A DNA stretch of 64,000 bases, taken from contig CP031585.1 of NCBI GenBank assembly GCA_003217735.2, forward strand, positions 620,001 through 684,000, written 5' to 3'. The notes beneath the pieces are model-generated. The model searched no databases, was not told the origin of the DNA, and saw only the letters and a list, made by a program, of their open reading frames with translations. A program made the translations under genes and the position numbers. Source of the DNA: Marinibacterium anthonyi (GTDB taxonomy: Bacteria; Pseudomonadota; Alphaproteobacteria; Rhodobacterales; Rhodobacteraceae). This document shows, one piece after another, positions 44,779 to 64,000 of this stretch; position 1 is the stretch's first letter; each line of letters begins with the position of its first letter.

Positions 44779-44865
44779 ACCGTCGCACAAGACCGTGATG
44801 CCCCGTGACCCGGCCCGTCGGGATCGTTAGCTGTTTGGCAAATTGCTGCAACAGGACTGGGAAAC

Positions 44866-45732: not shown

Positions 45733-45738
45733 TCCCTT

Positions 45739-45766
45739 GCGGCCCCGCCCGGTCGGGTGGGGCCGC
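45739..45766 (+). terminator. Terminator after the YghU gene
   Basis: GCGGCCCC and GGGGCCGC enclose a further CCC/GGG stem: a 28-bp hairpin starting 7 bp after the stop. The T-run is short (TTCG). Confidence 0.65.
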
Positions 45767-45865
45767 TTCGGAGCCGCTTCGCTTCGCGTCACTTTGCCCT
45801 GACTTTCGGCCAGTGCTTGACATCGCCCCCGACAAAACGGACCCAAGGGCGATCAGGAGGGGCCG

Positions 45866-46906: not shown

Positions 46907-46938
46907 TCGGCGGCGCGCGGGGCGGTTGGCGCCGGGCC

Positions 46939-46966
46939 GGGTATTTTCGAAGAGAAAGAAGCAGCA
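46939..46966 (+). repeat. 3'-box repeat, copy downstream of hemE
   Basis: GGGTATTTTCGAAGAGAAAG and following bases, 33 bp after hemE. Its closest relative is the box behind the SRP RNA (24264-24292, minus strand), sharing AAGAGAAAGAAGCAGCA. Confidence 0.75.
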
Positions 46967-47043
46967 ATCGGTATGGCTTGCCGGTTGCCGCGAGGTCGGT
47001 CGCGGTCTGGGGGAGGAATTGCCACGAGGGCGATTTTTCCCAC

Positions 47044-47072
47044 TTGACGCCACCCGGTGCATTCCTTACCTC
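47044..47072 (+). promoter_or_regulatory. tRNA promoter
   Basis: TTGACG (47044-47049), 17 bp, TACCTC (47067-47072) directly upstream of the tRNA; the -10 match is weak. Confidence 0.5.
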
Positions 47073-47085
47073 CACGCTCACTTCT

Positions 47086-47162
47086 GGCGGAGTAGCTCAG
47101 TTGGTTAGAGCAGCGGAATCATAATCCGCGTGTCGGGGGTTCAAGTCCCTCCTCCGCTACCA
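47086..47162 (+). tRNA. tRNA-Met (anticodon CAU), probably elongator
   Basis: A 77-nt cloverleaf with encoded CCA. Acceptor stem GGCGGAG/CTCCGCT, D arm GCTC/GAGC, anticodon stem GCGGA/TCCGC with loop ATCATAA (CAT at 34-36) and T arm GGGGG/CCCTC. A CAU anticodon fits elongator Met, initiator Met or lysidine-modified Ile2. G1 paired with U72 argues against an initiator. Its 3' half is the integration target of the downstream island. Confidence 0.9.
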
Positions 47163-47332
47163 AATCTTCCCACCATCAGGATCAAGACCGCAGGCCCGCA
47201 GGGAGCTGCGCGGTTCGTGTTCGTAACTTCTGCCATTTGCGGTCTAGCTGCATGGTGCAAGGGGTGCCCTTGGGTCAGGGGCTCGGCACACCTGTCTGGC
47301 AGGTTTGACCGTAGCCTGTCGCCACATCCCTG

Positions 47333-48247
47333 TTATCTTGCGGTACCCACGACGTCGGCGCGCCTCTTCACCGCCTCGTTCAGGCGTTCCAGAGGATTCG
47401 TGCTGTGCAGTGTCGTGCGGTGCTGGCGGGGAAACGTCATGTCGGCTTGGACGTCGTGCTCGCTGGCCTCCATCAGGTCCGCCAGCTTGGGCCAGCGCGG
47501 GCGCAGCTGCTCTGCCACCTTGCGCCAGCTTTCTCCGGCATGGGCGCGGTCCGGCTGGTCGAAAGCCTGCCGGATGGCGGCGACGACGACGGTGTGCTGG
47601 CCGCGGGACACCTGTGCGAGGGCGTTGCGCATCCAATGAACCCTGCAGCGCTGCCACGTGGCCTCGAATACTCGGGCGATGGCCGCTTTGAGGCCCGTAT
47701 GGGTATCGCTAATCACTAGCTGGACATCACCAAGGCCGCGCGCCTTCAGGGAGCGCAGGAACTCGGTCCAGAAAGTCTCGGCTTCCGTGGGGCCGATGCC
47801 CAAGCCGATGATTTCGCGCCGTTCCCAGGTATTGGCGGCGACGGCGATTATGACCGCGACGGGCACGATGCGCCCGCCTTGGCGGACCTTGAGGTAGGTG
47901 GCGGCGAGCCAGACACAGGGCCATTTTCCGGTGAGCGGGCGGTTCAGGAACTTGCCGCCGCGCGCTTTTATGTCCTTGCAGAGCTTGGACACCGTGCTCT
48001 TGGAGATGCCGCTGAGTCCCAGTGCCTGCACCAGATCGTCGACGCGCCGGGTCGAGGCGCCCCCGATCCACGCTTCCTGGATGACGGCGACCAAGGCTTG
48101 CTCTGACGTCTTCCGGGCCTCGAGGAAGCCCGGGAAATAGCTGCCCTGCGGCAGCTTCGGTACCCGCAGGTTCAATGTGCCAAGACGGGTATCGAGGGCG
48201 CGATCGCGGTAGCCGACAGGATCCTTCCGTTCAGGGGCTTGCGCCAT
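47333..48247 (-). pseudogene. IS256-family transposase remnant
   Basis: About 300 codons of a Mutator/IS256 transposase remain (RDRALDTRLGTLNLRVPK to HSTNPLERLNEAVKRRADVVG). Roughly the first 90 residues and the C-terminal tail are missing. The first catalytic Asp is lost: WLAATYLK replaces the usual WLDATYLK (near 47904). The later DTHTGLK Asp and LERLN Glu persist. Its upstream edge runs into the protease gene, which it truncates. Confidence 0.85.
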
Positions 48248-48813
48248 TTGTCGGGATCCATGTCGAACCGGGGGCCCGTCCAGCCGTTCACCACGACTTC
48301 GGTCTTGCGCGCCGCAGCGTCGTCAAGAGCGTTCGGGTGCAATTCGACCGTGTGGGCCGGGCCGAAGTCGATGTGGCGCTGGTAAGGCATCAGGGACGCC
48401 GCGCAGATCCCGTCGTTCTTTAGAACCTGCGCGGCTTCGTCCAGGAAGGTGCCGCCCGCTTCAACGCCCGCGTCGGGCGGTTTCGTGGGATCGCTGAAGG
48501 TCGGCTCATACTCCAGCCGCATGCGGTTGTAGACGAATTCCTCCGACAGCATATGTGGGCGGCTTTCGCCGGTCTGACGCCAGAGGTACAATTCCTCTGC
48601 CGCGACGACCGCGAAGGCATTGCAAGTGCTGCGGATCTTGCCCTGGTCCCGGATCGGCCAGGCGCCGGGTGCCCCGTTGATCAGGTTGATGTCGGGAAAG
48701 ACCAGAGCCTGGGAGGGCTCCTGCAGGCCGCGCCGGATGTAGTCCAGAAGGCTTCCCGTGGACCAGCCATCGGGGATGGCTCCGCCAAATCCAAAGTCGT
48801 CCGAGTTTGTCAT
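48172..48813 (-). CDS. Papain-like (C1 family) cysteine protease, 3' truncated
   Basis: 213 codons remain. PIRDQGKIRSTCNAFAVVAA holds the oxyanion Gln and the catalytic Cys of C1 peptidases. The His and Asn that should come later are missing because the last about 20 codons read into IS256 sequence (from roughly 48230). There is no signal peptide. GGGGAG precedes the start. It is the third gene of an operon behind a SARP regulator and a PAP2 protein. As it stands it should be inactive. Confidence 0.7.
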   Translation of the reverse strand: MTNSDDFGFGGAIPDGWSTGSLLDYIRRGLQEPSQALVFPDINLINGAPGAWPIRDQGKIRSTCNAFAVVAAEELYLWRQTGESRPHMLSEEFVYNRMRLEYEPTFSDPTKPPDAGVEAGGTFLDEAAQVLKNDGICAASLMPYQRHIDFGPAHTVELHPNALDDAAARKTEVVVNGWTGPRFDMDPDKWRKPLNGRILSATAIAPSIPVLAH

Positions 48814-48837
48814 TTCACTGCTCCCCTCGCCCGGACC

Positions 48838-49734
48838 TCATCCGGTGATACCGTGAACCGAGAGTTGCCCCGGGCCGGCCTTGAGGTGGCTCAATTCGGT
48901 GCGGGCGTCGGGCAACAGGCTGTTGCCCTCGGCATCCGGGGGCAGGGCGGCCAGAGCAGCGACGATTTCGTGCGCCAGGTCCCGTCCGGCCCGGGTGTCG
49001 GACTCATAGTGCACGCCGGCCCGTTCCCTGTTCTTCGCGATACGTGCGGCCATCAGCCTGAGGTACCTGGTCATCGGCTCGTCCGCCCCGCCGTTCGGCA
49101 GGGCCAGCACCAACAATTCGGCCACTGTATGGGCCTGCGTGGAATGGTTGCTGGGGTATGACGGATGCGGAGGGACAGGGATGAACGGCAGCAGGCCGGG
49201 AAACAGCTGGGACGGCCGCGGGCGTTTGAGTTTCAGCTTATAGTGCATTCCAATGATACCGGCGACCTGCGTGCCCAATTCGATCAGGCGCGCGGTCTGT
49301 GGATGTGTGATCGGATTGGTGGAAAGCACTGCGTGGAAGTAGTGGCCGAAGTACCCGGACTGATCCTGGATTTCCGCTCCGTAGTCGTCGATGTTCTTGA
49401 CCCTGTTGGTCAGGATTGCCTTGATTTCGGGGGTCGGGTCGCTGTCCGGCCACACGCCCACGGCCTGCTCGAAGTTGGCGCCGGTCACGTCGATCTGTTG
49501 GAATATCAGAGGAATTTTTGCTGTGACCCAAAGCTTTGGGTCCATCATGCCGATGTCGTACTGACCGGGCCCGATAAAGGACGTCTCCGATGGGGGCAGA
49601 AGTGGCTTCGACGTGGGAACCCCCACGCCGCCACCCGTTCCGTGGCCGACGAAGGACCCGCTGTGGGACCCACTGTGAGACCCGCTATGGGACCCGCTGT
49701 GCGATCCGCTGTGTCCGGACGAAAAAAGAATCAT
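48838..49734 (-). CDS. PAP2/vanadium-haloperoxidase-fold protein with HSGS repeats
   Basis: 298 residues. The three metal/phosphate-binding motifs of the PAP2 superfamily are present: KLKRPRPS (about 167), SYPSNHST (about 191) and NRERAGVHYESD (about 232). The N-terminus is a five-fold SHSG repeat after MILFSSG. The protein has no membrane helices, unlike lipid phosphatases, which suits a vanadium-dependent haloperoxidase or soluble phosphatase. The start is preceded by GGGAG; the protease gene follows by 24 bp. Confidence 0.8.
   Translation of the reverse strand: MILFSSGHSGSHSGSHSGSHSGSHSGSFVGHGTGGGVGVPTSKPLLPPSETSFIGPGQYDIGMMDPKLWVTAKIPLIFQQIDVTGANFEQAVGVWPDSDPTPEIKAILTNRVKNIDDYGAEIQDQSGYFGHYFHAVLSTNPITHPQTARLIELGTQVAGIIGMHYKLKLKRPRPSQLFPGLLPFIPVPPHPSYPSNHSTQAHTVAELLVLALPNGGADEPMTRYLRLMAARIAKNRERAGVHYESDTRAGRDLAHEIVAALAALPPDAEGNSLLPDARTELSHLKAGPGQLSVHGITG
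49655..49714. repeat. 12-bp minisatellite encoding HSGS units
   Basis: Five 12-bp units (GACCCGCTGTGG and one- or two-base variants) in direct tandem, inside the first 28 codons of the PAP2 gene. Each encodes one His-Ser-Gly-Ser unit. Confidence 0.92.
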
Positions 49735-49803
49735 GTGATCACTCCCTTGATGCGCGGCAATTGGGACAAGCCCGCGTCAAAGAAACGTCAGCGCCATTTG
49801 CAG

Positions 49804-51816
49804 CTACGATGGAAGGCCGCCGTTGAGCATGTCCTTCGCCAACGCCGCCCGGTCCTTTGCCGATCGGAAACTTTGCCGTTCGATGTACCGCGCAATGGAA
49901 AAGCCCGGTTCGACTTCCTTGTGGCACGCCACCAGTTCCCCGGCCTCCGCCGCGCGGCCAGACGCGCCGAGCGCGGCGATGGTCACCCTGAGGTTGGCGC
50001 TGTAATTCCGGTTGCGGCGAAAGCAGGACAGGCCAAGATCGACCGCCGCATCGAAATCGCCGGCGGCGTAATGGGCGAGGCTCAGGAAATGTTCGTTGCG
50101 AAACAGGAAAGGATCGAACGGGGACAGGTCCAGCGTCCGTTGCCCGTTGTCGACGGCACGCCGCGCGTTGTCGGTGTAGGCAAGCGTTGGCACGGTCCAC
50201 ACGAGGGTCTCGGCGTCGTTCGGACTGCTGTCCAGGGCCTGTTCGAACAGTCGAAGCGCATCATCGTATTGCCGGCGAAAGATCACGCGACTGTGCCCCA
50301 GCAACGCCATGGCGCGGCCCGTGTTGGGGGACAGCGTGAGGGCCTGCCGGGCATGGCGCTCGATGGCCTCGTAATGGCCGGCGGGATCGTCGCTCCATCC
50401 CTGCCAAACACAGATGCTGTGCCATTCCGCCATGAGGGTATGCCCCTGGGCCAGATGGGGGGACAACCGGAGAGCGCGGTCAAGCAGGCGGCCGGCATCG
50501 AAGAAACTGTCCCGCGCGAGACTGAAGATGGCTTCCTTGGCGCGCAGGACCAGATGGAACGGCTCCAGCGCCTCGACCGGCTCGAACCGGATCCGGCTGA
50601 GTTCGGCGATGTTGACGAAGGGCACCACGGCTTGAGCAATCTCGGCTGCAATCGGGGCATTGAGATCGTACATTTCCTCCTGCCCGCAATGCAGGATCTT
50701 GGACCAGATGACCCTGCCGGTTTCCGTCTCGACCAGTTGCATGGACATGCAGACGTCGTTTCCAGCGGCCCGCACGCTGCCCAACACGGCGTAACTGACG
50801 TTCAATTCGCGCTGCAACGTCGGCAGGGGCGGCGGGTGGTCGAGGTACTGTCGTGTGGTGTTGCTTGAAATGACTGCGGGCGCTTGAAAATTCGCCAGAT
50901 GGCAGGTCAATTGATCGAGCAATCCGAGCAGCACGAAAGAGGGAATGTTCTGCGGACCAAGGTTCTGCAGGGGCAGAACGGCGATCATCACGTCCGGGGT
51001 TCTGACTTGTCTGCTGCGGGCGGGGCCTTGCTTGGGGCTGACGCGGCTGCCCTCGGCAAGCTTGATCTCCACGGCGAGGTTCTGGGTTTCCAGGGACGGC
51101 TCGGTGTCCATTTCGGTTTCGAGGAAGGCGTAGAAATCGCGGTACAGCGCCAGCGCCGCCGGTCGGTTCTGTTTTTCCGCGTGGCAGCGCATCATCGCCC
51201 TGACGGCGCTTTCGTTCAGTTCGTCCAGCCCATAGGCGGCCTGCGCCAGGGAAAACCGGGTTTCAGGCGGGATCGATCCGTCTTCGAAGCGTGTGGCCAG
51301 CGTATCCAAGGTGCGCTGCATGGCCTGCTGGCGGAACCAGAGCAGCCAGTCGTCGAACTCTTAGCTGATGCCGTCGAGGCCCGGCAAGATGTGGCGGACA
51401 TCCGCGATGCGACTGTCGTGGCCAAGGTTCGGCACGTCCGATCGAAGGTTGGCCTGCAGCAGATCGAGGTCGGTGGTGAAAAAAACGGGATCCACGGAAA
51501 TGTCGCTGCGGGATTGCCGCAAGGCAAATGGGGCCTGATCGCCGAATGCCCGATTTATCTGCAAAAGCGCCTGTCGGAGAGACGCGCGGGCCAAACGGGT
51601 ATCGCCCGTTCCCCAGAAGAGACCGGATGTGGCTTCTCTGGAATGTTCCCTGTGGCTTTCAAGGACCAGATAACTCAGCAGGGCGCGCGTCTTTTGGCCC
51701 GGTGGAATAACCTCCTTGTGACCCCAGAATAGCCGGCATTGCGAACAGACCAGAAGCCTGAACTTGGTTTCCTGGCTTTCGGCGTCCTGGTGACTGTCCA
51801 ATCCGGAATAGGGCAT
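49804..51816 (-). pseudogene. SARP-type transcriptional regulator with TPR domain, interrupted by an in-frame stop
   Basis: 671 codons in one frame with a single TAA at 51363-51361. Part one (MPYSGLDSH onward) is a winged-helix DNA-binding domain (KTRALLSYLVLE) ending LPGLDGIS. After the stop the frame continues EFDDWLLWFRQQAMQ, exactly where SARP proteins run from this linker into the BTAD domain. A TolB-like domain (IAVLPLQNLGPQN) and TPR repeats follow. Without readthrough the DNA-binding and sensing halves would be separate. It heads the PAP2/protease operon. Confidence 0.8.
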
Positions 51817-52300
51817 AAATTGGATCTCGGTATCATGGTGTTTCAGATGCCTGGCAAAGACGCTGATCTATTTCTCTTTTTCAACCTTAAAGGCACCGGC
51901 TGACTTTGGTTCGCTTGCGGGACGGGGCGGTGCGTAAAATTTGCTGCGGAAATCTTCATACAGCACAACGGCATTCTTCTAAACACATGCTGAAGGAGAT
52001 TTTATATATTAATTAAATATTGATTTCGAGTGGAATTCGTTCGGAGGATGAAGTGAACGATCCGGTGGAACGATCGCATGTCCGCTTGAGCCGTCCTTGA
52101 AACCTTCCGGGCGGCCATATCCCCCTCCCCGCCACCTTGGACGGCCGCGCCGACCGGCCCGGATGTCGGTGGCGGAACGGCTGTCGCATTCTTTCCCCGG
52201 ACCCCGACGCGGCAAGGACCAATAGACCGGCGCAGTTCCCCGTTGGGGGTTTTCACGTGCGAGGAAGCGCTGCGGGGCCGGCTTGCCGGCGTCGGTGAAT
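51817..52300. other. Long intergenic region, partly AT-rich
   Basis: No open frame here has a ribosome site or recognisable product. Bases 51995-52025 are strongly AT-rich (ATTTTATATATTAATTAAAT). The left end should contain the promoter of the SARP gene. Confidence 0.5.
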
Positions 52301-52321
52301 TAAGCTTGTCTTCCCCTCTAT

Positions 52322-52343
52322 ACCTTCCGGTTACTGGAAGGCT
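52322..52343 (+). promoter_or_regulatory. CueR-type copper operator
   Basis: ACCTTCC, seven bases, GGAAGGCT is the dyad bound by CueR-like MerR regulators in copper-inducible promoters. It lies 40 bp upstream of the start codon of a dead copper-ATPase reading frame. No cueR gene is visible in the window. Confidence 0.75.
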
Positions 52344-52382
52344 TGTGTTCCGAGCCCTAGCCGGACCAGCGAGGAGCAACCC

Positions 52383-52634
52383 ATGCCCTCCCATTACCAT
52401 CACCACCATGCCTCGGAGAGCCGCAGGAGCACTTGCGACCTGGTCTGCGGCATGACCGTCGACCCCTGAGCCGGCAAACCCACGGCCGAGCACGACGGGC
52501 ACCTTTTTCACTTCTGCTCGGAGGGGGGGCGCGCCAAGTTCCTGGCCGATGCGGCGCAGGCGGCGGCCCGCCATCGAGTGACCCACCGGGCCCCGGCAGG
52601 CGGGTTCTGTCGCTTCCGGAACACGGCGTCGTGA
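52383..52634 (+). pseudogene. Remnant of a copper P-type ATPase N-terminus (YHS domain)
   Basis: Starts MPSHYHHHH after GAGGAGC, then DLVCGMTVDP, an in-frame TGA at 52467-52469, and continues HLFHFCSEGGRAKFLAD. This is the His-rich tail plus YHS/TRASH domain that opens many CopA/SilP-like ATPases. The canonical second Cys of the CSDGC motif is changed to Gly. Nothing of the membrane or ATPase part remains. Confidence 0.75.
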
Positions 52635-53100
52635 TATGCGTCAGCCGAAGGTGGACCCGCGCTGATCCTGGATGTTCTGGCCAGACGGAGCCGGTGGGCG
52701 GCAGTGTCTTGTGGCACTCACCGACGGTCTGCCCGGGCTGTCGGGGACTGGTGAGCCGGCACAGGGCCCGATTTCGGCCGGATTCGGCGCGGGGGGCTGG
52801 CCGGACGGTCTTGTGCCCCGGGTTCACGGAGAGGACGGGATCGCAACAGGAGGACAGGCAGTGAACGATGATGCAAGCAAGGGGGGCGTGCATCGGGATG
52901 GGGCGGACGCGGTCCGGTTGCGGCCTGATGCCGCCTTGGACCACGGACGATGCGACATGGCCGGGCGGCTGGAGCCCGAACTCTGGGACAGGCTCAAGGA
53001 GGCGCGCAGCGAGATCCGCACGCTTGGCACGCGCGAGATCCTGCCCGTTGCACCGTGGCAAGGCTCCCTCTCGGGACATTGCTGCGCAAGCCCTGCCGGA

Positions 53101-53560
53101 CAGTGGATGAAGGACATGGGCATTCAGGGCATCATCCGCGGCAAGCCGCACAGAACGACGATCCCCGACAAGAAGGCGCCGTGCCCGCTGCACAAGGTGA
53201 ACCGCGAGTTTCGCGTGCCGGCGCCCAACATGCGCTGGGTCAGCGATTTCACCTACATCGCATCCTGGAAGGGGGTCGTCTGTGTCGCCTTCTTCATCGA
53301 CGCCTCCGCCCCGCGGACCATCGGCAACAGTGCCAAACCGGGGAAATTTCATCCTGCGCATTTGGAGAGATTACGTCCGGCACTCACAGACGCTGGAATG
53401 GGTCGACTGGTTCAACAACCGTCGCCTTCTCGAGCCCATCGGCAATATCCCCCCAGCCGAAGCAGAGGCCAACTTCCATGCGGCGCTGGAAAGTGAAGAG
53501 TTGGCCGCGCAACTATCCGTCACCAGCCTCCGGCAAACCCGGGGGCGGTTCAATGATCAT
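53101..53560 (+). pseudogene. IS3-family transposase (orfB) remnant
   Basis: One frame holds WMKDMGIQGIIRGKPHRTT to WVSDFTYIASWKGVVCVAFFID (first catalytic Asp region). After about 53330 similarity resumes in another frame with LEWVDWFNNRRLLEPIG and PPAEAEANFHAALE, the C-terminus. The middle, with the remaining catalytic Asp and Glu, is deleted. The stretch 52863-53100 upstream may be further debris. It abuts the decayed tRNA repeat. Confidence 0.85.
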
Positions 53561-53613
53561 CATCCGCGTGTCGCGGGGGGCAAATCCATCCTCCGCTACC
53601 AAGTCTTCCCATC
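53556..53613 (+). repeat. Decayed tRNA 3' half (internal att-like site)
   Basis: About 58 bp match the anticodon-loop-to-CCA half of the tRNA at 47086-47162 plus the following CAA.TCTTCCCA.CAT, with a few mismatches and a 2-bp gap. It contains no 5' half, so it cannot be a tRNA gene. Confidence 0.85.
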
Positions 53614-53707
53614 ATATCCATGTTAACGCGCTGCAAGCGCGCGTTCTTGCGCGTAATCCCCTCTGCAACAAACGCGCCGGATGGTGCCTTCGCCCTGTTG
53701 CCCCCGT

Positions 53708-54136
53708 TCAGTGTTCCGGATTTCGGGACCGCTGGCTGGCGGCGATGCGGTCCGGCCAGGTCGAGGCGATCCAGGCGAGGATGTCGAGGATCTGCCTGTC
53801 CGAGAGCTGATCGCCGAACGCGGGCATTCCGCTTGTGAACGATGTGACGCCGGCCCGGGCCAGGGCCGCCTGACCGCCGAGCTTGGTGTAGTCCAGAAGC
53901 ATGGCCGTCGGATGGTGCCAGGTGTGGCCGGTTTCGTCATGGGGCGGCGCGGGGTAGACCCCGTCCGGACCGGGGCTGCGCCAGTCCGGCTGGCCCTCCA
54001 GGGTCACGCCGTGGCAGGCGGCGCAATGCTCCTGGTAGAGCGCTTCGCCCTGCGCCGGATCGGCACCGTCAAACGCGTGCCCGGCGAAGGCGGGGCCGGC
54101 CAGAAGCGCCAGCGCCAGCAAGGGGATCCGGGTCAT
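53708..54136 (-). CDS. Small periplasmic c-type cytochrome
   Basis: 142 residues with signal peptide (IPLLALALLAGPAFAGH), one CAACHG heme site and a likely Met ligand in SGMPAFGDQLS. It is a class I cytochrome. Its start overlaps the multicopper oxidase stop by four bases (ATGA), so the pair is translationally coupled. It probably passes electrons to or from that oxidase. Confidence 0.88.
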   Translation of the reverse strand: MTRIPLLALALLAGPAFAGHAFDGADPAQGEALYQEHCAACHGVTLEGQPDWRSPGPDGVYPAPPHDETGHTWHHPTAMLLDYTKLGGQAALARAGVTSFTSGMPAFGDQLSDRQILDILAWIASTWPDRIAASQRSRNPEH

Positions 54137-55440
54137 GTGACCTCCACCCAGGTCTTCATTCCGGATGCCTGATGACCCAGCATGTGGCAGTGCAGCAGCC
54201 ATTTGCCGGGATTGTCGAAGACACAGAGGATGTCGCGGCTTTCTCCGGCCCCGACCAGGGTGGTGTCGCGCAGATCGCCCGGGGCACCCTCGGGCGTGAC
54301 GTGGTGAAAGTGGTGGCCGTGCAGGTGGATACCGTGCGGAAAGGCCGTGTCGTTGATCAGCCGGATCCGGGCGGTTTCCCCGGGACCGAACCGGGCAAAG
54401 GGGGTGTCGGCCAGGCCGGAGCGGCCATTGAAGGCCCAGATGTCGTCGCCCGCGTGACGCCCGCCCATGGCGCCCCCTTCCATGCGCAGTTCCAGCACGC
54501 GCGGGTCGGGGGCGGGCATGGCGACGCGGTTGGGCGGCAGGGTCGGGACGGGGCCGCCGACAGGGTTGGGATTTTTGCCGTTGGCCGCGATTCGACCCAG
54601 TTCATAGGGGCCGCCGCCGGTCGGGAAATCGAAGACGACCGGCCCCGTGACATCGCCGATGACGTCGATCCGCTGGGCCGGGGCCAGCTGCAGGTTCGCG
54701 AAGGCGCGCGGCACGGGCAGCGGCATGCCGTCCAGCGCGACGATGCGCCCTTCGACACCCTTCAGCGCGACGGGGAAGATCCGGGCCGTTGCCGCATTGA
54801 TCAGGCGCAGGCGGATGCGATCCCCGGCCCGGACCTCATCCACAGAGGGGATCGCCCGGGCAAAGTTGCCAAGCCGTCCGCCATGGGCGAAATCGTGCAT
54901 GTTGGCGAAATCGCCGATCAGCGTGCCATCCTCCTGCAGGCGCCAGTCGTCGATCAGCACGGTGATGTCGTGATCGACCTGCGGCGGATCGCGTTCCTCG
55001 ACGATCAGGGCGCCGTAAAGCCCCTGTTCCACCTGTTCCCACGACCGGTTGTGCGAATGATACCAGTAGGTTCCGGCATCGGGCAGATCGAAGGCATATT
55101 CCATTCCGGCACCGTCGGGGACCGCGTCCTGGGTCAGGCCGGGCACGCCGTCCATGGCATTGTCGATGCGGATCCCGTGCCAGTGCAGCGCCGAGGGCGC
55201 GCCGATCCGGTTCTCGAACCCAAGCGTCAGCCGGTCGCCGTGCCGCAGCCGGATCTCGGGGCCGGGCGTCGCGCCGTTCAGGCCCAGCATGGCGGTCATC
55301 GGGTCGCCTGCGGGCAGGATCCGGGCGGTGACCGGGGCCGCGACAAGCCTCATCGGCTGGGCGCGGGACAGGCCCGGCACGACAAGGGCGGCCGCGCCGG
55401 TGGCCAGGAAGGTGCGGCGGGTGAGAGGCGGGGTTTTCAT
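54133..55440 (-). CDS. Multicopper oxidase, Tat-exported
   Basis: 435 residues. A twin-arginine signal (RRTFLATGAAALVVPG) is followed by three cupredoxin domains. All four copper clusters are visible: LHWHGI (about 86), WYHSHN (about 127), HGIHLHGHHF (about 372) and HCHMLGHQASGM (about 416; the last His and Met belong to the type 1 site). It should oxidise Cu(I) or organic substrates while reducing oxygen. It is coupled to a cytochrome c gene. Confidence 0.92.
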   Translation of the reverse strand: MKTPPLTRRTFLATGAAALVVPGLSRAQPMRLVAAPVTARILPAGDPMTAMLGLNGATPGPEIRLRHGDRLTLGFENRIGAPSALHWHGIRIDNAMDGVPGLTQDAVPDGAGMEYAFDLPDAGTYWYHSHNRSWEQVEQGLYGALIVEERDPPQVDHDITVLIDDWRLQEDGTLIGDFANMHDFAHGGRLGNFARAIPSVDEVRAGDRIRLRLINAATARIFPVALKGVEGRIVALDGMPLPVPRAFANLQLAPAQRIDVIGDVTGPVVFDFPTGGGPYELGRIAANGKNPNPVGGPVPTLPPNRVAMPAPDPRVLELRMEGGAMGGRHAGDDIWAFNGRSGLADTPFARFGPGETARIRLINDTAFPHGIHLHGHHFHHVTPEGAPGDLRDTTLVGAGESRDILCVFDNPGKWLLHCHMLGHQASGMKTWVEVT

Positions 55441-55479
55441 GACGGTCTCCGTGTCGATTGAGGGATGTCGGGTGGGACT

Positions 55480-55797
55480 TCACGCTTTCGGCGGCGGAGG
55501 ATCCAGATCGGGGGATGTGAGCGGGCAACGGGCCGGGTGGGTCACCCCTGACCGATGGGCGAGCGCAGCGATGCACCCGCGAAGCGCGTCCATTTGAACC
55601 GGGATGGCCGCCGAACAGGCCGCGCACCCCGCCGTCATCCCGTCCGGACAGCGGGTCTGGCTGTCGCAACCCGGGCAGGCCGGGACATGGTGCGACGGCT
55701 GCACGGAATGGTCCATGGGCGCGGCGAACGGCGCCGCCGGCCACAGGCAAAGGGCGGCAAGCAACAGGGGCAGGCAGATGGCGCGGATCAGGACCAT
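55480..55797 (-). CDS. Secreted Cys-rich protein of the copper cluster
   Basis: 105 residues with a signal peptide (ICLPLLLAALCLWPAAPFAAP) and a compact Cys-rich stretch (CPGCDSQTRCPDGMTAGCAAC: six Cys) plus HHVP upstream. I do not recognise the family. The spacing of CxxC pairs suggests metal binding. It opens the minus-strand operon with the multicopper oxidase and cytochrome genes. Confidence 0.65.
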   Translation of the reverse strand: MVLIRAICLPLLLAALCLWPAAPFAAPMDHSVQPSHHVPACPGCDSQTRCPDGMTAGCAACSAAIPVQMDALRGCIAALAHRSGVTHPARCPLTSPDLDPPPPKA

Positions 55798-55952
55798 GAC
55801 GGGCAGGATAGTCCGGCGCGGCTGTGGTGCGCACGGGGGCTGCACGGGCTGCACGGGGCTTGCCCGGGGCCCTGCGCCGATCCGCACCATGACTTTGCGG
55901 GGCCTGCGGATCTATGATGGTGCAACGTCGTATGTCATCCCCGGAGGCGGAA

Positions 55953-56501
55953 ATGCTGAAACCCCTGCTCTTGTCCTGCGCCCTGATGGCCCCGCTGGCC
56001 GCTCTGGCGCAATCCTCGCGACATGACCATGCCGCGCATATGGGCGGCGCCCTGATGGCCATGCCGATGGAACCCGGCAATGACGCATTCGGTGCTCTGG
56101 CCGAGATCGTGGCAATCCTGCGCGCGGATCCCGGGACCGACTGGTCGCGCGTCGATATCCCGGGGCTGCGGGCGCATCTGCTGGACATGGAGGCGGTCTT
56201 TGACCTGGAGCACGTGATCCAGGCCGATACCGCGACGGGCGTCGCCCTGACCATTCCGACAGATCAGCCGGGCGGGGACGCCGCTGGCCGCATGGTCCCG
56301 GCCCATGGCCCGGTGCTGGCCGGGGAAACCGGATGGTCATCGCAGGTCGAGGTGAAGGACGGTGTCATCGAATGGGTGGTCGAGGATGCCCGGGACGGCG
56401 ATCAGATCCGGGCGCTGGGGGTCTTCGGTCTGATGGCGGTGGGGAACCATCACCCCGCGCATCACCTGGCGATCGCGTCGGGACAGGGGATGAGCCATTG
56501 A
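55953..56501 (+). CDS. Secreted His/Met-containing protein of unknown function
   Basis: 182 residues, start after GGAGG, with signal peptide (LLLSCALMAPLAALAQ). The mature N-terminus has HDHAAHMGG and the C-terminus GNHHPAHHLAIASG, both candidate copper ligands. No known domain is recognised. It is divergent from the Cys-rich gene across 155 bp, which must hold the promoters of both operons. Confidence 0.65.
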   Translation: MLKPLLLSCALMAPLAALAQSSRHDHAAHMGGALMAMPMEPGNDAFGALAEIVAILRADPGTDWSRVDIPGLRAHLLDMEAVFDLEHVIQADTATGVALTIPTDQPGGDAAGRMVPAHGPVLAGETGWSSQVEVKDGVIEWVVEDARDGDQIRALGVFGLMAVGNHHPAHHLAIASGQGMSH

Positions 56502-56556
56502 CCGCGATTGCCGTGACCCGTTGACAAATGATCCGGGCAAGGCACAACCTTGGGTT

Positions 56557-56892
56557 ATGGTCCACGGGCACCCATGTCTCAATCTGCTGAAAGCGACTTG
56601 TCTCGCGCTCTTGCTGGGGGTGCTGGTCAGTGTTTTCCCTGGCTCGGCAGCGGCCCACGGGGATCTGCAGCACGAGGTCGCCAATTCCTCCAGCATGGCC
56701 GACAGTGACATGATCCCCATGATCGTGGACGCATGCTGCCATCTTGATGGCCTCTGCATCGGAAAGGTCCTGCCCGGGACAGAGGTGCAAGTACCCATCG
56801 GCCATCTCGGGACGAAGGTGTCGAACCGTCTTGGCAGGCAGGTTCCCGATTCCTTGAAACCCGCCGCCGAGCCGCCTCCTCCGCGTCTCTGA
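56557..56892 (+). CDS. Small secreted protein, unknown
   Basis: 111 residues from ATG 56557. It has a signal peptide (CLALLLGVLVSVFPGSAAAH) and a mature part with DACCHLDGLCIG (three Cys, one His) and a proline-rich tail. An upstream TTG at 56521 is in frame, but TTGACA there looks more like a -35 box. The function is unknown; its place in the copper cluster suggests a metal-related role. Confidence 0.55.
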   Translation: MVHGHPCLNLLKATCLALLLGVLVSVFPGSAAAHGDLQHEVANSSSMADSDMIPMIVDACCHLDGLCIGKVLPGTEVQVPIGHLGTKVSNRLGRQVPDSLKPAAEPPPPRL

Positions 56893-56944
56893 CCCGCTCC
56901 GGCCCTTGGGTCGGTCGCAAGGTTCAAGACAATGGAGAGATGAG

Positions 56945-57535
56945 ATGAAGTATCAGCAGATCGTGCCGGGTGGCTTGATGGCTGCCGGGTTTGCAATGTC
57001 CGCGCTGGCGCATTCCGGGGCCACGGGCGTGGTGAAGGAACGCATGGACGCCATGAAGGGCATGCAGGAGGCCGTGAAGACCATCACGCCGATGTTCTCG
57101 GGCCAGGCGAACTACGATGCAGCGGCGGTCCGCAGTGCCGCAGCCGAGATCGCCGGACATGCGGGTGCGGCCATGACTTCGACGTTTCCGGAAGGCACGA
57201 CCGGGCATCCGTCCGAAGCTCGTCCCGAGATCTGGACCGACTGGGATGATTTCCAGGCGCTGGCCAATCAGCTTGCGCTGACCGCGCAGGGCCTTGGTCT
57301 TTCGGCGGAGAACGGGATGCATGGCGCGACTGGAATGATGGGCGGGACCTCCGGCATGATGGGAGGCAATACGTCCGGGATGATGGGCAGTACCTCCGGC
57401 ACGATGGGGGGCACGATGCCCATGGCCGGGACGATGACGGCCGAGCAGATCGGCCAGATGCCGGCGGACGGGGCCTTTGCCATGATGACCCAGACCTGTT
57501 CGGCCTGTCACGACCGGTTCCGGATGGAACACTGA
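56945..57535 (+). CDS. Cytochrome c' (class II) with a Met-rich insert
   Basis: 196 residues. It has a signal peptide and helical-bundle segments (VVKERMDAMKGMQEAVKTI; IWTDWDDFQALANQLA), and the heme site CSACHDRFR sits at residues 185-189, near the C-terminus as in cytochrome c'. Between the third and fourth helices is an extra about 40-residue Gly/Met repeat (SGMMGG, SGMMGS, SGTMGG). Such Met clusters bind Cu(I). The ribosome site is GGAGAG. Confidence 0.85.
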   Translation: MKYQQIVPGGLMAAGFAMSALAHSGATGVVKERMDAMKGMQEAVKTITPMFSGQANYDAAAVRSAAAEIAGHAGAAMTSTFPEGTTGHPSEARPEIWTDWDDFQALANQLALTAQGLGLSAENGMHGATGMMGGTSGMMGGNTSGMMGSTSGTMGGTMPMAGTMTAEQIGQMPADGAFAMMTQTCSACHDRFRMEH

Positions 57536-57538
57536 GGG

Positions 57539-58444
57539 GTGCGCATCCTCGTCAAACCGCTTCTCGCCGCGGCCGGACTGGCCGCGGTGGGGGCCGGCGC
57601 GCTGTTTCTCTGGCCGGTCGGGACACCGGCGGCCATTGCTCCGGTCATCGGCAACGCCGAACGCGGCGCCTACCTGGCCCGGGTGGGCGGCTGCATCGCC
57701 TGCCATTCGGATCCGTCGTCAGGCCGTCCGGCCCTGACCGGGGGTGCGCCCATCGTCTCGCCCTTCGGGACCTTCGTGCCGCCCAACATCACCACCGATC
57801 CCGCAGCAGGGATCGGGGACTGGACGCTGGAGGAGTTTGCTCATGCGGTCCGGCAGGGCGTGTCGCCCGATGGCGCGCCCTATTACCCGGCCTTTCCCTA
57901 TGCCTTCTACGCCGGCCTGACCGACCAGGAGATCGCCGATCTCTGGGCGGCCTTCCGGACGGTGCCCGCCGACCCGGAGCCGGCGGCCGGGCATGATATC
58001 GCCTTCCCGTTCAACCTGCGCTCCGGGCTCAAGCTCTGGCGCGCGGCCTATGCCTGGGCGCCTGCCACGGCGCCGGATCCGGAGCGGTCCGAGGCCCGGA
58101 ACCGCGGGCAATGGCTGGTCAACGGTCCGGGTCATTGCGGCGCCTGCCATACCGACCGGAACCAGCTGGGCGGCCGCATCCCAGCGCGTCACCTTGCCGG
58201 CAGCGACGACCTACCCGCAGGCGGCAAGGCACCGGACATCAGGCCCCTGCGTCTGACGGAGGCGGGCTGGACGGTGGCGTCGCTGAGCTATGCCCTGGGC
58301 TCGGGGGTCACCCCGGACGGTGACACCTTCGGCGGCGGCATGGGCGAGGTCGTGCAGCAGGGGCTGGGCTGGATCTCGGCCGGGGACCGGACGGCCATCG
58401 CGCTTTATCTGCTCGACCGCGATGCGGCGGAGGACGGCTCTTGA
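57539..58444 (+). CDS. Diheme cytochrome c
   Basis: 301 residues beginning with GTG 3 bp after the preceding stop. One N-terminal membrane anchor is followed by two cytochrome domains with CIACHS (52-56) and CGACHT (near 199). The pattern resembles the cytochrome subunit of membrane-bound alcohol/gluconate dehydrogenases. No dehydrogenase subunit is nearby. It probably receives electrons from the preceding cytochrome c' or from the oxidases. Confidence 0.85.
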   Translation: MRILVKPLLAAAGLAAVGAGALFLWPVGTPAAIAPVIGNAERGAYLARVGGCIACHSDPSSGRPALTGGAPIVSPFGTFVPPNITTDPAAGIGDWTLEEFAHAVRQGVSPDGAPYYPAFPYAFYAGLTDQEIADLWAAFRTVPADPEPAAGHDIAFPFNLRSGLKLWRAAYAWAPATAPDPERSEARNRGQWLVNGPGHCGACHTDRNQLGGRIPARHLAGSDDLPAGGKAPDIRPLRLTEAGWTVASLSYALGSGVTPDGDTFGGGMGEVVQQGLGWISAGDRTAIALYLLDRDAAEDGS

Positions 58445-58565
58445 AACAGGAGCGCCAAGGGCAGATCGCTGTGTCCAAGGCATCTGACGGGACCGTGGGC
58501 GGCGGGGCGCTGACGCGTCGTGATTGCGCTTGCCAGCAGTCGCGGGCTGGGGCTCTATTGCTGCC

Positions 58566-58949
58566 ATGACAACGCTTTGGCACAAGCTGGTGACCTTGGC
58601 CGCGATGGTGCTCACCGCGGTATCCCTGCTTGTGTCGGGCGGGGCCGTCATGGCTATGGAGATGGACGGCTGCGACATGCATCCGGCCAATTGGGCCTCG
58701 GCCCATGAAATTTCGGCCCATGGAACTCATGACATGGACATGGCCGGTGATCCGGCGCAGATGGCGGATATGGGGGCGGCTGACCAAGGCATGGCCGATT
58801 GCGGCATGCATGCCTGCGTCTTCGACCTGCCCACTGCCGCCCCGCTGCATCCTTCCCTGCGTCCGTTGTTGCAGGTGCTGGCTCCGACCGAGACGCAAGC
58901 GCTGACGTCGCGTGCGGGTGACGGCATGGGACACCCTCCGAAGATCTGA
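58566..58949 (+). CDS. Small secreted Met/His-rich protein
   Basis: 127 residues from ATG 58566. After a signal peptide (about 30 residues) come MEMDGCDMHP, HGTHDMDMAGDP and MADCGMHAC: many Met, His and Asp and a few Cys. This suits a copper-buffering protein. The ribosome site is weak. No known family is recognised. Confidence 0.6.
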   Translation: MTTLWHKLVTLAAMVLTAVSLLVSGGAVMAMEMDGCDMHPANWASAHEISAHGTHDMDMAGDPAQMADMGAADQGMADCGMHACVFDLPTAAPLHPSLRPLLQVLAPTETQALTSRAGDGMGHPPKI

Positions 58950-59012
58950 TCGATCCCATTCGTGCCGGGCGCCGCGCGTCCGACCCATCAATCATCTTTC
59001 GGACATATCCCC

Positions 59013-59237
59013 ATGAAACCCATCCATGCGGCTTTCCTGCCGCTGCTTGTCGCGGGCTGCGCGCCCGTGGGCGAGCTATCGCGGCCGCCCCAGCTTGTCG
59101 CTGCGGCCGACGCGGTCGCGCCGGTGCCCCCGGTCAACCCCGCGCCCGCGCTGATCTTCACACGGCACGAGATCACCGACCCCGCCGACTGGCGCAGCCT
59201 GAATGACGCCCAGGCGCCGGAAGGATCTGGCCTATGA
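59013..59237 (+). CDS. Small lipoprotein preceding the TolC gene
   Basis: 74 residues with a lipobox (LPLLVAGC) and a proline/alanine-rich body ending in a short charged tail. It overlaps the TolC-family gene by four bases. It probably sits at the outer membrane beside that protein; no known family is recognised. Confidence 0.6.
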   Translation: MKPIHAAFLPLLVAGCAPVGELSRPPQLVAAADAVAPVPPVNPAPALIFTRHEITDPADWRSLNDAQAPEGSGL

Positions 59238-60622
59238 AACCGATCCTTCTGACCCTCGGTACGGCGCTGCTGCTTTCGGCCTGCGATCAGGCGCTGATCC
59301 GGCAGGGGTCTGCCCCGCGCCCCGGTTTCGCGCTGGTGCAGGACAGCACAAGGCACGCCACCGGGCAGGACAGTGTCTGGCACCTGTCGGCGGCTGAACT
59401 CGATGCCAACGCGGCCCGGGTGTCGGCTTTGGTCAACGGCAAGACCATCGGTCCCGACCGGGCCGTGCAGGTGGCGCTGATGAACAACCGGGCATTGCAG
59501 GCCGCTTATGCCGAGCTGGGCCTTTCGGGCGCCGAGTTGTGGGGAACCGCGCTTGGCTCGATCCCCACGCTGAACCTGTCGGTCACCAACCTCGGCGAGG
59601 AAGGGTTTGCCCGCACGCTGGAGGCGACGCTGACGACGTCCCTTCTGGAGCTTGCCACCCTGAAGCCGCGCAAGCGCATGGCCGAGATGGATTTCCGTCA
59701 GGCCCAGCTGGAGGCGACCGGAGCCACGCTGGCGCTGGCCTACGAGACCCGCCGCGCCTGGATCGAGGTGGTCGGGGCCTTCGAGGCGGCGGCGCTGATC
59801 GGCGCGGCGCAGGGCACGGCGGATGCCGGGTCCGAGCTGGCGGCGGAGCTGGGGCGGACCGGGGCGATGAACCGGGCCGACCAGGCGCGCGAACACGTCT
59901 TTACCGCTGAACTGGCCGGGGAACGGGCGCAAAGGAAGCTCGAAGCGCAGCTGGCCAAGGAACGGCTGATCCGGCTGATGGGGCTCTGGGGCAGCGACAT
60001 CAACGTCAACGTGCCCGATCGGCTGCCGGACCTGCCCCACGGCGTGACGGCCCGGCCCGATATCGAACGGCTGGCCTTGACCCACCGGATCGACCTGGCC
60101 GCCGGACGGCTGGAGCTGGAGCGGATCGCCAGCGATTACCGCCTGACACAGGCCACCCGGATGCTGTCGGATATCGAGATCATGGCCGGGGCCGAGATGG
60201 AGCGCGAGGATGGCGCGAACGGCCTCTCTCCGGTGGTGGACATCGAATTCCGGATCCCGGTCTACGATACCGGCAACCTGAACAGGCGCCGGGGCGAGAT
60301 GACCTATATGCGTGCGGCCAACACGCTGGCGCAGGAGGCGGTGAATGCGCGTTCCGAGGCGCGGTCGGCCTATGCCGCCGTGACCGGGTCCTACCGGGTG
60401 GCGCGGCACTGGCAGACCGAGGTCCTGCCGCTGCGCCGCGAAATCGATGCCGAGGCGCTGCGCAGCTACAACGGCATGCTCACCTCGACCTTCGAGCTTC
60501 TGAGCGATGCCCGCGACGGGCTGGAGGCCGAGCTGAGCGCGGCCGAGGCAAAACGGGATTACTGGCTGGCCGAGGCGGATGTGTCCGCCGTGATCTGGGG
60601 CAGCGTGGGAGGTTCGCAATGA
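59234..60622 (+). CDS. TolC-family outer membrane lipoprotein
   Basis: 462 residues. A lipobox (LLLSAC) is followed by two repeats of long alpha helices with the OEP pattern (VQVALMNNRALQAAYAELGLSGAE; ARPDIERLALTHRIDLAAGRLELE in outline). Such proteins form exit channels for efflux pumps. No membrane-fusion or inner-membrane pump gene is nearby. It is coupled by ATGA overlaps to the lipoprotein before it and the multicopper oxidase after it. Confidence 0.88.
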   Translation: MKPILLTLGTALLLSACDQALIRQGSAPRPGFALVQDSTRHATGQDSVWHLSAAELDANAARVSALVNGKTIGPDRAVQVALMNNRALQAAYAELGLSGAELWGTALGSIPTLNLSVTNLGEEGFARTLEATLTTSLLELATLKPRKRMAEMDFRQAQLEATGATLALAYETRRAWIEVVGAFEAAALIGAAQGTADAGSELAAELGRTGAMNRADQAREHVFTAELAGERAQRKLEAQLAKERLIRLMGLWGSDINVNVPDRLPDLPHGVTARPDIERLALTHRIDLAAGRLELERIASDYRLTQATRMLSDIEIMAGAEMEREDGANGLSPVVDIEFRIPVYDTGNLNRRRGEMTYMRAANTLAQEAVNARSEARSAYAAVTGSYRVARHWQTEVLPLRREIDAEALRSYNGMLTSTFELLSDARDGLEAELSAAEAKRDYWLAEADVSAVIWGSVGGSQ

Positions 60623-61974
60623 TCAATCGCAGACAGATGCTGAGTGCCGGTGCCGCCACGATGGTGGCCGCGGGCGCGGCAGCCCAGACCCGGTTTCGCG
60701 ACCTCCCCGAGGCGGCGAGCACCGACAGCCCCATGACCCAGGTGCCGCCCCGGCCCTCCGTCGGCGTCGATTACAACCCGGTGGTCACGCTGAACGGCTG
60801 GTCGCTGCCCTTCCGGATGAACGGCAACGTCAAGGAATTCCACCTGGTCGCCGAGCCGGTGGAGCGCATAATGGCCACCGGCATGATCGCCCGTTTGTGG
60901 GGCTACAACGGCCAGTCCACCGGCCCCACGATCGAGGCGGTGGAGGGCGAAAGGGTTCGGATCTATGTCACCAACCGGCTGCCGGAGCACACTTCGGTGC
61001 ACTGGCACGGGTTGATCCTGCCCTCGGGCATGGACGGGGTGGGCGGGCTGTCTCACCCTGCGATCCCACCCGGCAAGACCTATGTCTACGAGTTCGACCT
61101 GACCAAGTCGGGCACCTTCATGTACCACCCCCACGCGGATGAGATGGTGCAGATGGCGATGGGCATGATGGGGCTTTTCATCGTGCATCCGCGCGATCCG
61201 GCCTTCATGCCGGTGGACCGCGATTTCGCCTTCCTGCTGGCGGCCTACGACATCGACCCGGGCACCTACATCCCGCGCGTGGCCGAGATGACGGACTTCA
61301 ACATGTGGACTTGGAACAGCCGGATCTTCCCGGACATCGATCCGCTGGCGGTGTCGAAAGGTGATCGGGTGCGGGTGCGATGTGGCAACCTGACGATGAC
61401 CAACCACCCGATCCACATGCATGGCTACGATTTCCAGGTCACCTGCACCGATGGCGGCTGGGTCCCGGAAAGCGCGCGCTGGCCGGAGGTGTCGATCGAC
61501 ATCCCCGTGGGCGCGATGCGGGCCTATGAATTCGACGCGGTGCACGAAGGCGACTGGGCGATCCACTGTCACAAGTCGCACCACACGATGAACGCCATGG
61601 GCCATGACCTGCCCACCTTCATCGGCACCGACAAGCGCAAGCTGACGGGCATGATCCGCGAGCGCCAGCCCGGCTACATGCCGATGGGCACGGCCGGCAT
61701 GGCCGACATGGGCATGATGTCGATGGAGCTGCCCGACAACACGGTGCCGATGATGACCGGCTGGGGGCCTTATGGCCCCTTGGAGATGGGCGGCATGTTC
61801 TCGGTGGTGAAGGTCCGCGCGGGCCTGGCCGCCGACGATTACTCCGATCCCGGCTGGTATCAGAACCCGCCCGGCACCCAGGCCTGGGAATGGACGGGCG
61901 AACTGCCCGACCATGCCAGCAACGACAGCCCCGAAACCCGCCTGACCCCGCGGCCCACCCGCGACAACGGCTGA
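60619..61974 (+). CDS. Multicopper oxidase, CopA/CumA-like, Tat-exported
   Basis: 451 residues. The Tat signal is NRRQMLSAGAATM. Copper clusters are SVHWHGL, MYHPHADEM, NHPIHMHGYDF and HCHKSHHTMNAM. The second cluster has HPH rather than the usual HSH, and the last lacks the exact HCHxxxHxxxM spacing but keeps candidate ligands. A Met-rich stretch (MGTAGMADMGMMSMELPD) resembles the Cu(I)-binding segment of CueO/CopA. The ribosome site lies in the end of the TolC gene. Confidence 0.9.
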   Translation: MINRRQMLSAGAATMVAAGAAAQTRFRDLPEAASTDSPMTQVPPRPSVGVDYNPVVTLNGWSLPFRMNGNVKEFHLVAEPVERIMATGMIARLWGYNGQSTGPTIEAVEGERVRIYVTNRLPEHTSVHWHGLILPSGMDGVGGLSHPAIPPGKTYVYEFDLTKSGTFMYHPHADEMVQMAMGMMGLFIVHPRDPAFMPVDRDFAFLLAAYDIDPGTYIPRVAEMTDFNMWTWNSRIFPDIDPLAVSKGDRVRVRCGNLTMTNHPIHMHGYDFQVTCTDGGWVPESARWPEVSIDIPVGAMRAYEFDAVHEGDWAIHCHKSHHTMNAMGHDLPTFIGTDKRKLTGMIRERQPGYMPMGTAGMADMGMMSMELPDNTVPMMTGWGPYGPLEMGGMFSVVKVRAGLAADDYSDPGWYQNPPGTQAWEWTGELPDHASNDSPETRLTPRPTRDNG

Positions 61975-62035
61975 AATGCCCTGCGAAGGGGCGTGGTGCC
62001 TCTTCGTTTTTACCCCTGAATGGAAGATCCCTGAC

Positions 62036-62314
62036 ATGAAATCCCTCATTCTCGCACTGCCCGTCGCCTTGTCCGCCACGGTTGCCCTGGCCGACAGCCA
62101 CTATGTCAACGGCACGGTGACCAAGGTCGACACCCAGTGGAACCGGGTGACGATCGACCACGAGGCGCTGCAGGCGCTCTCGATGCCCGCCATGACCATG
62201 GTGTTTGAACTGGCCGATCCCGCGATGATCGAAGGCCTGTCGGAAGGCCAGAACATCGCGTTCGTTGCCGATCGCGTCCAGGGCAGGCTGACGGTAACCG
62301 AGATCAAGGAATAG
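62036..62314 (+). CDS. CusF-like periplasmic copper-binding protein
   Basis: 92 residues with a signal peptide and a small OB-fold domain with the CusF pattern: VTIDHEALQALSMPAMTMVFEL, where His and two Met (HxnMPAMTM) bind Cu(I) (shown in outline). It would hand copper to the oxidase or efflux channel. It is the last functional gene of the copper operon. Confidence 0.9.
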   Translation: MKSLILALPVALSATVALADSHYVNGTVTKVDTQWNRVTIDHEALQALSMPAMTMVFELADPAMIEGLSEGQNIAFVADRVQGRLTVTEIKE

Positions 62315-62375
62315 GCTGTCGACGGATCAACTGCATCAAGCGTGTGCCCCGGGATGGCCGGGGCACGAGCTGGTC

Positions 62376-62573
62376 TTGGGATTGGCTTGCAGGAGCGATC
62401 ATGCGCCGGCGTCGCTGTTCATCGAGCAGAACTGGCCGCCGAAGAAGATCCAGGCGCTGCTCGGGCGCTCGTCGGTCAACATGACGCTGGACGTGTGCGG
62501 CCACCTCTTCGAGAGCCCCGAAGACGGTATCGGGCTTTTCGCCAAGATGAAGCATGATCTGCTCGCGGCGTAA
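62376..62573 (+). pseudogene. Tyrosine recombinase (integrase) C-terminal remnant
   Basis: About 58 codons match the integrase C-terminus (ASLFIEQNWPPKKIQALLGRSSVNMTLDVCGHLFESPED). Two catalytic residues are lost: LGH has become LGR, and the nucleophilic Tyr of VYGHL is Cys (TGC at 62496-62498). The N-terminal and core parts are gone. It lies 24 bp from the outermost tRNA-like repeat. Confidence 0.85.
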
Positions 62574-62596
62574 GCAAGGCGCTGACTTTAAGGGAC

Positions 62597-62640
62597 AATC
62601 GTAATCCGCGTGCCGGGGGCAAGTCCCTCCTCCGCTGCCA
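62597..62640 (+). repeat. Decayed tRNA 3' half (outer att-like site)
   Basis: About 44 bp match the anticodon-to-CCA part of the tRNA at 47086-47162 (AATCCGCGTG, GGGGG, AAGTCCCTCCTCCGCT) with a 2-bp deletion and two changes. It marks the right end of the island. Confidence 0.85.
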
Positions 62641-62782
62641 TTGGCCTTCCCCTTGGAAGCGAATGCTGCAGGGGGCCAAGAGCATCGTGATGTGTTCTCT
62701 ATGGTCAAGGCAGTCGCGACAGCGAGGCGACCTCGCTCGTGTCAGGCGGGTATTTCGCGTGGCGTGATCTTTGCAGGTCAGA

Positions 62783-63814: not shown

Positions 63815-64000
63815 GGCCGGACGTAGTCCTGCAGGATGGAGTCGGGTATGCCGTCGGCCTCGAACCGGATCTCGTAGCGGTCCAGCAAGTCGCGGTACAT
63901 GCGATCCTGGGCGTCGAGCACGGTGTAATATTCGTATTGCCGGGCGACATAATCGCGGATCTCGTCGAAGGAGGCCAGCTGTTCGGGCTGACCTTCGGTG
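63811..64000 (-). CDS. Probable peptidylprolyl isomerase-like (PpiC-type) protein, C-terminal end
   Basis: Only the last 62 codons are in the window: GQPEQLASFDEIRDYVARQY followed by a coiled-coil-like stretch and EIRFEADGIPDSILQDYVRP. This resembles the C-terminus of periplasmic PpiC-like isomerases found next to HupE genes. The assignment is tentative because the catalytic domain is outside. Confidence 0.5.
   Translation of the reverse strand, partial: TEGQPEQLASFDEIRDYVARQYEYYTVLDAQDRMYRDLLDRYEIRFEADGIPDSILQDYVRP

Follow-up and report, generated by a model that had tools for sequence, protein, structure and literature searches.

Our analysis of a 64,000-nucleotide stretch of Marinibacterium anthonyi DNA (assembly GCA_003217735.2, contig CP031585.1, positions 620,001 to 684,000 of the forward strand; hereafter the window) indicated that the region downstream of its tRNA-Met(CAT) gene very likely consists of tRNA-targeted genomic islands in a tandem array that has decayed. 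This one tRNA gene very probably received foreign DNA, copper-resistance genes included, on two or more occasions, and the inserted DNA then decayed in place. An earlier reading made without database searches (the sequence-only reading) had proposed two successive tRNA-targeted integrations that are now immobile, and this proposal is largely upheld. Two or more integrations are supported by pairs of an integrase and a displaced tRNA copy in the congener G001, in the family genome G292 and in viral contigs, together with a nearly empty site in a second congener, G002.

The only tRNA gene found in the window by ARAGORN was an intact tRNA-Met(CAT) on the plus strand (47086–47162), and a Rfam scan of 44000–64000 returned this same gene as its single RNA. 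It is regarded here as the integration target, now reconstituted; its name rests on the CAT anticodon, and elongator tRNA-Met or tRNA-Ile2 may both fit. Searching the whole genome (6.8 Mb) with window positions 47000–47400 gave seven matches at E<=0.001, of which three were the tRNA itself, 53556–53615 (87% identity, E 2.7e-12) and 62597–62640 (89% identity, E 4.7e-9), while the other four (E 8e-6 to 7e-4) were identified by ARAGORN as tRNA genes (Met, Asp, Asp and Trp). Since five matches fell on tRNA genes, just two non-tRNA matches were found in 6.8 Mb, both within 15.5 kb of tRNA-Met(CAT) and both where the sequence-only reading had placed copies of its 3′ half. These displaced copies have the strand of the tRNA gene and start at its nucleotide 32–33. 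Within the inner copy (rep1; nucleotides 33–77), the tRNA-derived part spans 53556–53601, with likeness to the tRNA's own 3′ flank extending past the CCA end to 53615, and the outer copy (rep2; nucleotides 32–77, at 62597–62640) reached nucleotide 77 in the whole-genome search versus nucleotide 73 by blastn-short.

Directly upstream of rep2, with a gap of 23 bp, ends the C-terminal remnant of a tyrosine integrase (62400–62573, plus strand), which consists of the last 57 amino acids and a stop codon and which had been correctly recognized as a dead integrase tail. The remnant scored 74% against the tail of a 318-amino acid open frame in G292; the tail alone matched no Pfam model, and this open-frame relative matched Phage_integrase with E 4.6e-28. 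The motifs DVCGHLF and LGRSS of the remnant correspond to DVYGHLF and LGHSS in the open-frame relatives, so that Tyr is replaced by Cys and His by Arg at what we take to be catalytic residues of the recombinase. No further match to the tail was present in the genome at E<=1e-6 (unrelated integrases were not searched for), indicating that no helper integrase of this subfamily was seen; within the subfamily of the tail, neither a functional integrase in cis nor a close relative in trans was found. No relaxase, conjugation or mobilization gene was observed among the open reading frames (ORFs) given to Pfam, although no search was aimed at such genes. With the integrases destroyed, neither island would be able to leave by itself.

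Two other genomes, G001 and G002, made up the genus sample, and in both the DNA upstream of the tRNA is colinear with that of M. anthonyi. The conserved left neighbour, which the sequence-only reading named hemE (45866–46906, plus strand), had a match in 53 of 61 genomes, with 89–90% amino acid identity in both congeners. In G002, hemE and the tRNA are followed by a block containing cheB, whose counterpart in M. anthonyi lies at ~67.7 kb when window numbering is continued beyond its end; the G002 block was 89.5% identical to 67820 onward over the 1,340 bp tested (blastn). Protein matches to G002 were colinear to 77364, and no colinear match was found past this point, up to 124 kb. The interval between tRNA and cheB is thus ~20.5 kb longer in M. 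anthonyi, including a segment with hupE, DUF3604 and Crp-like genes, and the site in G002, the one sister genome concerned, is nearly empty, with cheB at the junction. The claim of inserted DNA therefore stands with a larger extent, whereas the ancestral hemE-tRNA-hupE junction that the sequence-only reading had proposed is refuted, on one sister genome, by its own test, as the tRNA of G002 runs into the cheB block.

A different arrangement was observed in G001, where hemE and the tRNA are followed by ~23.4 kb of different DNA and then by an integrase remnant and a 95% copy of the tRNA half. On a second G001 contig (C42), an integrase remnant (Pfam Phage_integrase, E 5.7e-10) and an 89% copy precede DNA that is 82.7% identical over 1.9 kb to 53553–55434, the start of the copper island of M. 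anthonyi. The left edge of the copper island is therefore common to two species and lies behind other DNA in both, and G001 has an integrase piece where M. anthonyi has a remnant of an IS3-family insertion sequence (IS). Joining contig C10 with C42 of G001 into one array was considered and rejected, as the 119 bp by which they overlap at their ends also form the end of C50, which makes the join ambiguous.

The integrase tail was further searched in 295 family genomes, giving 17 matches in nine genomes. Five of these (M. anthonyi, two in G001 and two in G292) had nucleotides 32 to 72–77 of tRNA-Met(CAT) directly downstream on the same strand, and the distance from stop codon to copy was 23 bp in M. 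anthonyi, in C42 of G001 and in the two G292 cases. The G292 copies show no mismatch over 46 nucleotides, and both lie behind 318-amino acid open integrase frames that retain the Tyr. In the IMG/VR collection of putative viral contigs, the exact 45-mer of tRNA nucleotides 33–77 occurred in 73 stretches (loci L218–L290), comprising 59 without the 5′ half, 12 full tRNAs and two too near a contig end. A relative of the G292 integrase was detected by tblastn in ten of the 59, with the copy 64–97 bp past its stop codon on the same strand in all ten. The left flanks of the 59 half-tRNA stretches were highly varied, and thus several integrase types seem to use this tRNA half. In G029, a genome of another genus, an exact 45-nucleotide copy begins 1,256 bp downstream of where the hemE-linked tRNA starts, and the DNA following the tRNA and that following the copy are 79% alike over 221 bp, as expected for two related elements in tandem.

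Linkage of hemE to the target was also surveyed in named relatives, where 14 of 80 loci had a tRNA-Met 51–184 bp past hemE on the same strand. With each of these 14 tRNAs used as its own query, 12 showed no copy in the 1.3–9.9 kb examined; these include L091, the locus of G001, where the copy sits further out. The other two loci (L101 and L128, Tateyamaria) had 28–34 nucleotide copies of the tRNA 3′ end ~80 bp past the hemE-linked tRNA, which are perhaps marks of another integrase type.

Several observations weigh against a tandem array of tRNA-targeted islands. The inner block (47163–53555) has a tRNA fragment but no relative of the integrase tail, and by the Islander rule, which asks for a separate fragment and a separate integrase in every tandem member, the lack of a surviving integrase means that only one island is counted here; G001 has two integrase and fragment pairs. 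The older state is known from a single sister genome, as G001 has nothing closer to the cheB block than a homologue at 53%, and some of the 20.5 kb might reflect loss in G002. A search for a third tRNA copy near 67.7 kb, by the whole-genome comparison and, as far as 72 kb, by exact 11- and 12-mers, found none. GC content shows no contrast, being 0.58–0.70 inside the islands and 0.61–0.70 in 40–47 kb. Among the relatives, the parts of contigs C21 and C73 examined around the two G292 pairs contained no tRNA, which leaves the placement of these pairs beside a tRNA putative, and the ten viral stretches derive from nine contigs with about five flank types and are not ten independent cases. No copy of nucleotides 32–77 was found within 1.5 kb of the tail matches in five of the nine tail-bearing genomes (G088, G093, G114, G133 and G180), and nine of the 17 tail matches had no half-tRNA copy within this distance, only matches of 10–20 nucleotides. 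Contigs C6 and C7 of G100 (loci L175, L187 and L189) instead carry integrase relatives near the 5′ half of the tRNA (nucleotides 1–42, 88–100% identity). These 5′-half fragments overlap the 3′-half fragments at nucleotides 32–42, which places the probable crossover there, in the anticodon-loop region.

The absence of an integrase beside rep1 could be interpreted as a single tRNA-targeted integration, that of the copper island with rep2, in which rep1 and 47163–53555 arose through IS-mediated rearrangement or duplication of the repeat. The IS3 remnant that adjoins rep1 and the IS256 ORF next to the tRNA agree with this interpretation, but it is highly improbable given the separate integrase remnant before the orthologous junction of rep1 and copper island in G001, which indicates that rep1 had its own integrase in a relative, and given that likeness between the rep1 flank and the tRNA flank extends beyond the CCA end. 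That the copies are only 87–89% identical to the tRNA might alternatively suggest that they match by chance or are tRNA genes that were duplicated and have degenerated. The probability of this is close to nil, as the copies are significant across the whole genome, share one strand and a start at nucleotide 32–33, and include one beside an integrase remnant, and as exact copies stand beside integrases in G292 and the viral contigs.

Tandem tRNA-targeted integration would proceed as follows. A tyrosine integrase would recombine within the anticodon-loop region (~nucleotides 32–42) of tRNA-Met(CAT), and the incoming element would bring nucleotides 32–77 just past its integrase gene, so that the tRNA is restored on one side and the old 3′ half is displaced to the other. 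The restored tRNA could then be reused by a later element, pushing the earlier one outward. By this scheme the copper island (53602–62596), whose far end carries the integrase remnant and rep2, probably arrived first, and the block at 47163–53555, which adjoins the tRNA and carries the IS256 ORF, a BTAD regulator, a PAP2-like ORF and IS3 fragments, would have arrived later. The segment with hupE, DUF3604 and Crp-like genes may be an older, third insertion that has lost its outer mark.

This third segment extends from 62641 to ~67.7 kb and is missing from the G002 site. Its HupE/UreJ-like gene (62783–63814, minus strand; Pfam HupE_UreJ_2, E 2.1e-49) was tried as the conserved right neighbour and rejected, owing to the tRNA-cheB junction of G002 and the lack of close homologues in the congeners. 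It can alternatively be supposed that the segment is native, was lost by G002, and that hemE-tRNA-hupE is the ancestral order, to which the absence of a tRNA copy at its outer edge would correspond. We find this unlikely, however, since the best hupE homologues in G001 and G002 had only 45–50% amino acid identity and were located elsewhere in the genome, and since 64001–67690 gave only weak nucleotide matches to the congeners (67–85% over 40–542 bp). Furthermore, in 15 relatives besides G002 the DNA downstream of the tRNA gave no tblastn match (E<=1e-15) to any ORF of at least 150 amino acids from 46907–78000, as sampled at 16 loci (two of them from G001) with 1.3 to 19 kb of downstream DNA. 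The segment is either DNA lost from relatives or an older insertion whose outer mark has disappeared, and our analysis leans towards the older insertion. A second hupE-like gene (46% amino acid identity) occurs ~43 kb further on (C1:727138–729616), in a region where the DNA also bears a weak resemblance to the hupE-DUF3604 segment.

Combining these events, we tentatively propose, at somewhat less than an even chance, a three-deep accretion at one tRNA in which the hupE segment arrived first, the copper island second and the IS/BTAD block last, while G001 meanwhile gained other islands before the same copper island. If this were true, the tRNA would have acted over a long time as a point of growth, with older cargo passed on by vertical descent on the far side of more recent arrivals, and the cargo would exchange genes with a second copper locus (99.7% identity over 1.76 kb).

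Pfam matches agree with the sequence-only reading that copper genes lie between the repeats. The copper island begins with a cytochrome c ORF (53708–54202, minus strand; Cytochrom_C, E 1.8e-11) and a CopA-like multicopper oxidase (54133–55440, minus strand) with Cu-oxidase domains, for which TIGR01480 scored below cut-off. The remaining genes are on the plus strand and encode a cytochrome c′ (56906–57535; Cytochrom_C_2, E 5.3e-24), a further cytochrome c (57539–58444; Cytochrom_C, E 6.5e-7), a TolC-type outer-membrane efflux protein (59234–60622; OEP, E 3.9e-17), a multicopper oxidase (60619–61974; Cu-oxidase_3, E 3.5e-40) and a CusF-like periplasmic copper-binding protein (61976–62314; CusF_Ec, E 7.5e-24). 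The cytochrome c and multicopper oxidase region at 53673–55433 is repeated with 99.66% identity over 1,761 bp at C1:1153587–1155347, which belongs to another copper locus on the same chromosome where the DNA beyond is only ~76% alike; either recent duplication or gene conversion would account for this repeat. No plasmid record covered 80% of the query, in 0 of 166 near records (whole island) and 0 of 506 distant records (copper part). Among the plasmid matches listed, copper genes had ~73–84% identity, and two further records fell in the 90–99% bands.

Within the inner block, an IS256-family transposase ORF (47333–48247, minus strand) lacks the N-terminal part of the profile, matching NF033543 at positions 21–319 of 338 (E 8.6e-81) and Pfam Transposase_mut from position 60. 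The operon of SARP, PAP2 and protease genes described in the sequence-only reading was retained in part. Its regulator is a BTAD/SARP-type pseudogene (49804–51816, minus strand; BTAD, E 4.6e-8) that, when read through, contains one internal in-frame stop, at codon 152, and its PAP2-like ORF (48838–49734, minus strand) is weak, with 24.5 bits for Pfam PAP2 against a cut-off of 27.2. The supposed protease, a truncated ORF at 48172–48813 (minus strand), had no match in Pfam, NCBIfam or PDB sequences. A copper-locus remnant, in a frame with an in-frame stop (52273–52557, plus strand), is homologous to part of two other copper loci, with 76% identity to G001:C42 14931–15193 and 78% to the second copper locus of M. 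anthonyi. The IS3 debris previously noted beside rep1 (52975–53555, plus strand) is confirmed as fragments only, with 52975–53328 matching NCBIfam transpos_IS3 positions 133–249 (E 1.4e-14) and a weak match to the C-terminal 27–28 positions (E 0.02–0.04).

Among the titles and openings of abstracts listed in our limited literature search, nothing concerned this locus. Islander (PMC4383910) lists 3919 islands, with 2083 anticodon-centred sites, 125 tandems of at least two members and four of at least three. The islands described there resemble the present ones in having an intact tRNA, a same-orientation displaced 3′ fragment, an anticodon-centred site and a tyrosine integrase, here a remnant; tandem arrays are also described there. 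Both fragments in M. anthonyi lie downstream of the intact tRNA in its orientation and extend to the tRNA end, and the islands they delimit (~6.4 and ~9.0 kb) are within the 2–200 kb range of Islander. Unlike in the type described by Islander, the fragments here have drifted, one member has no integrase and the other retains only the 57-amino acid tail. Integrative and conjugative elements (ICEs) and integrative and mobilizable elements (IMEs) of Mesorhizobium likewise use tRNA-Met in another alphaproteobacterial group, and their authors (PMC8627217) note that elements with a common site are likely to integrate in tandem. In contrast to these elements as described there, the locus showed no conjugation or mobilization gene among its Pfam-scanned ORFs, for which no dedicated search was made. 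The IMG/VR contigs share the copy of nucleotides 33–77 with a same-strand integrase relative upstream, although the spacing is 23 bp in M. anthonyi versus 64–97 bp and the viral integrases are just 27–41% identical to that of G292.

In summary, tRNA-targeted insertion is a well-known route of bacterial gene gain and this locus is an ordinary case of decayed tandem tRNA islands, so that the general view of genome evolution is unchanged. The tandem islands explain how copper-resistance genes in this lineage came to neighbour a gene of haem biosynthesis. They also add a well-supported attachment site, tRNA-Met nucleotides 32–77, copies of which occur in many putative viral contigs as well as in three genera of the family.

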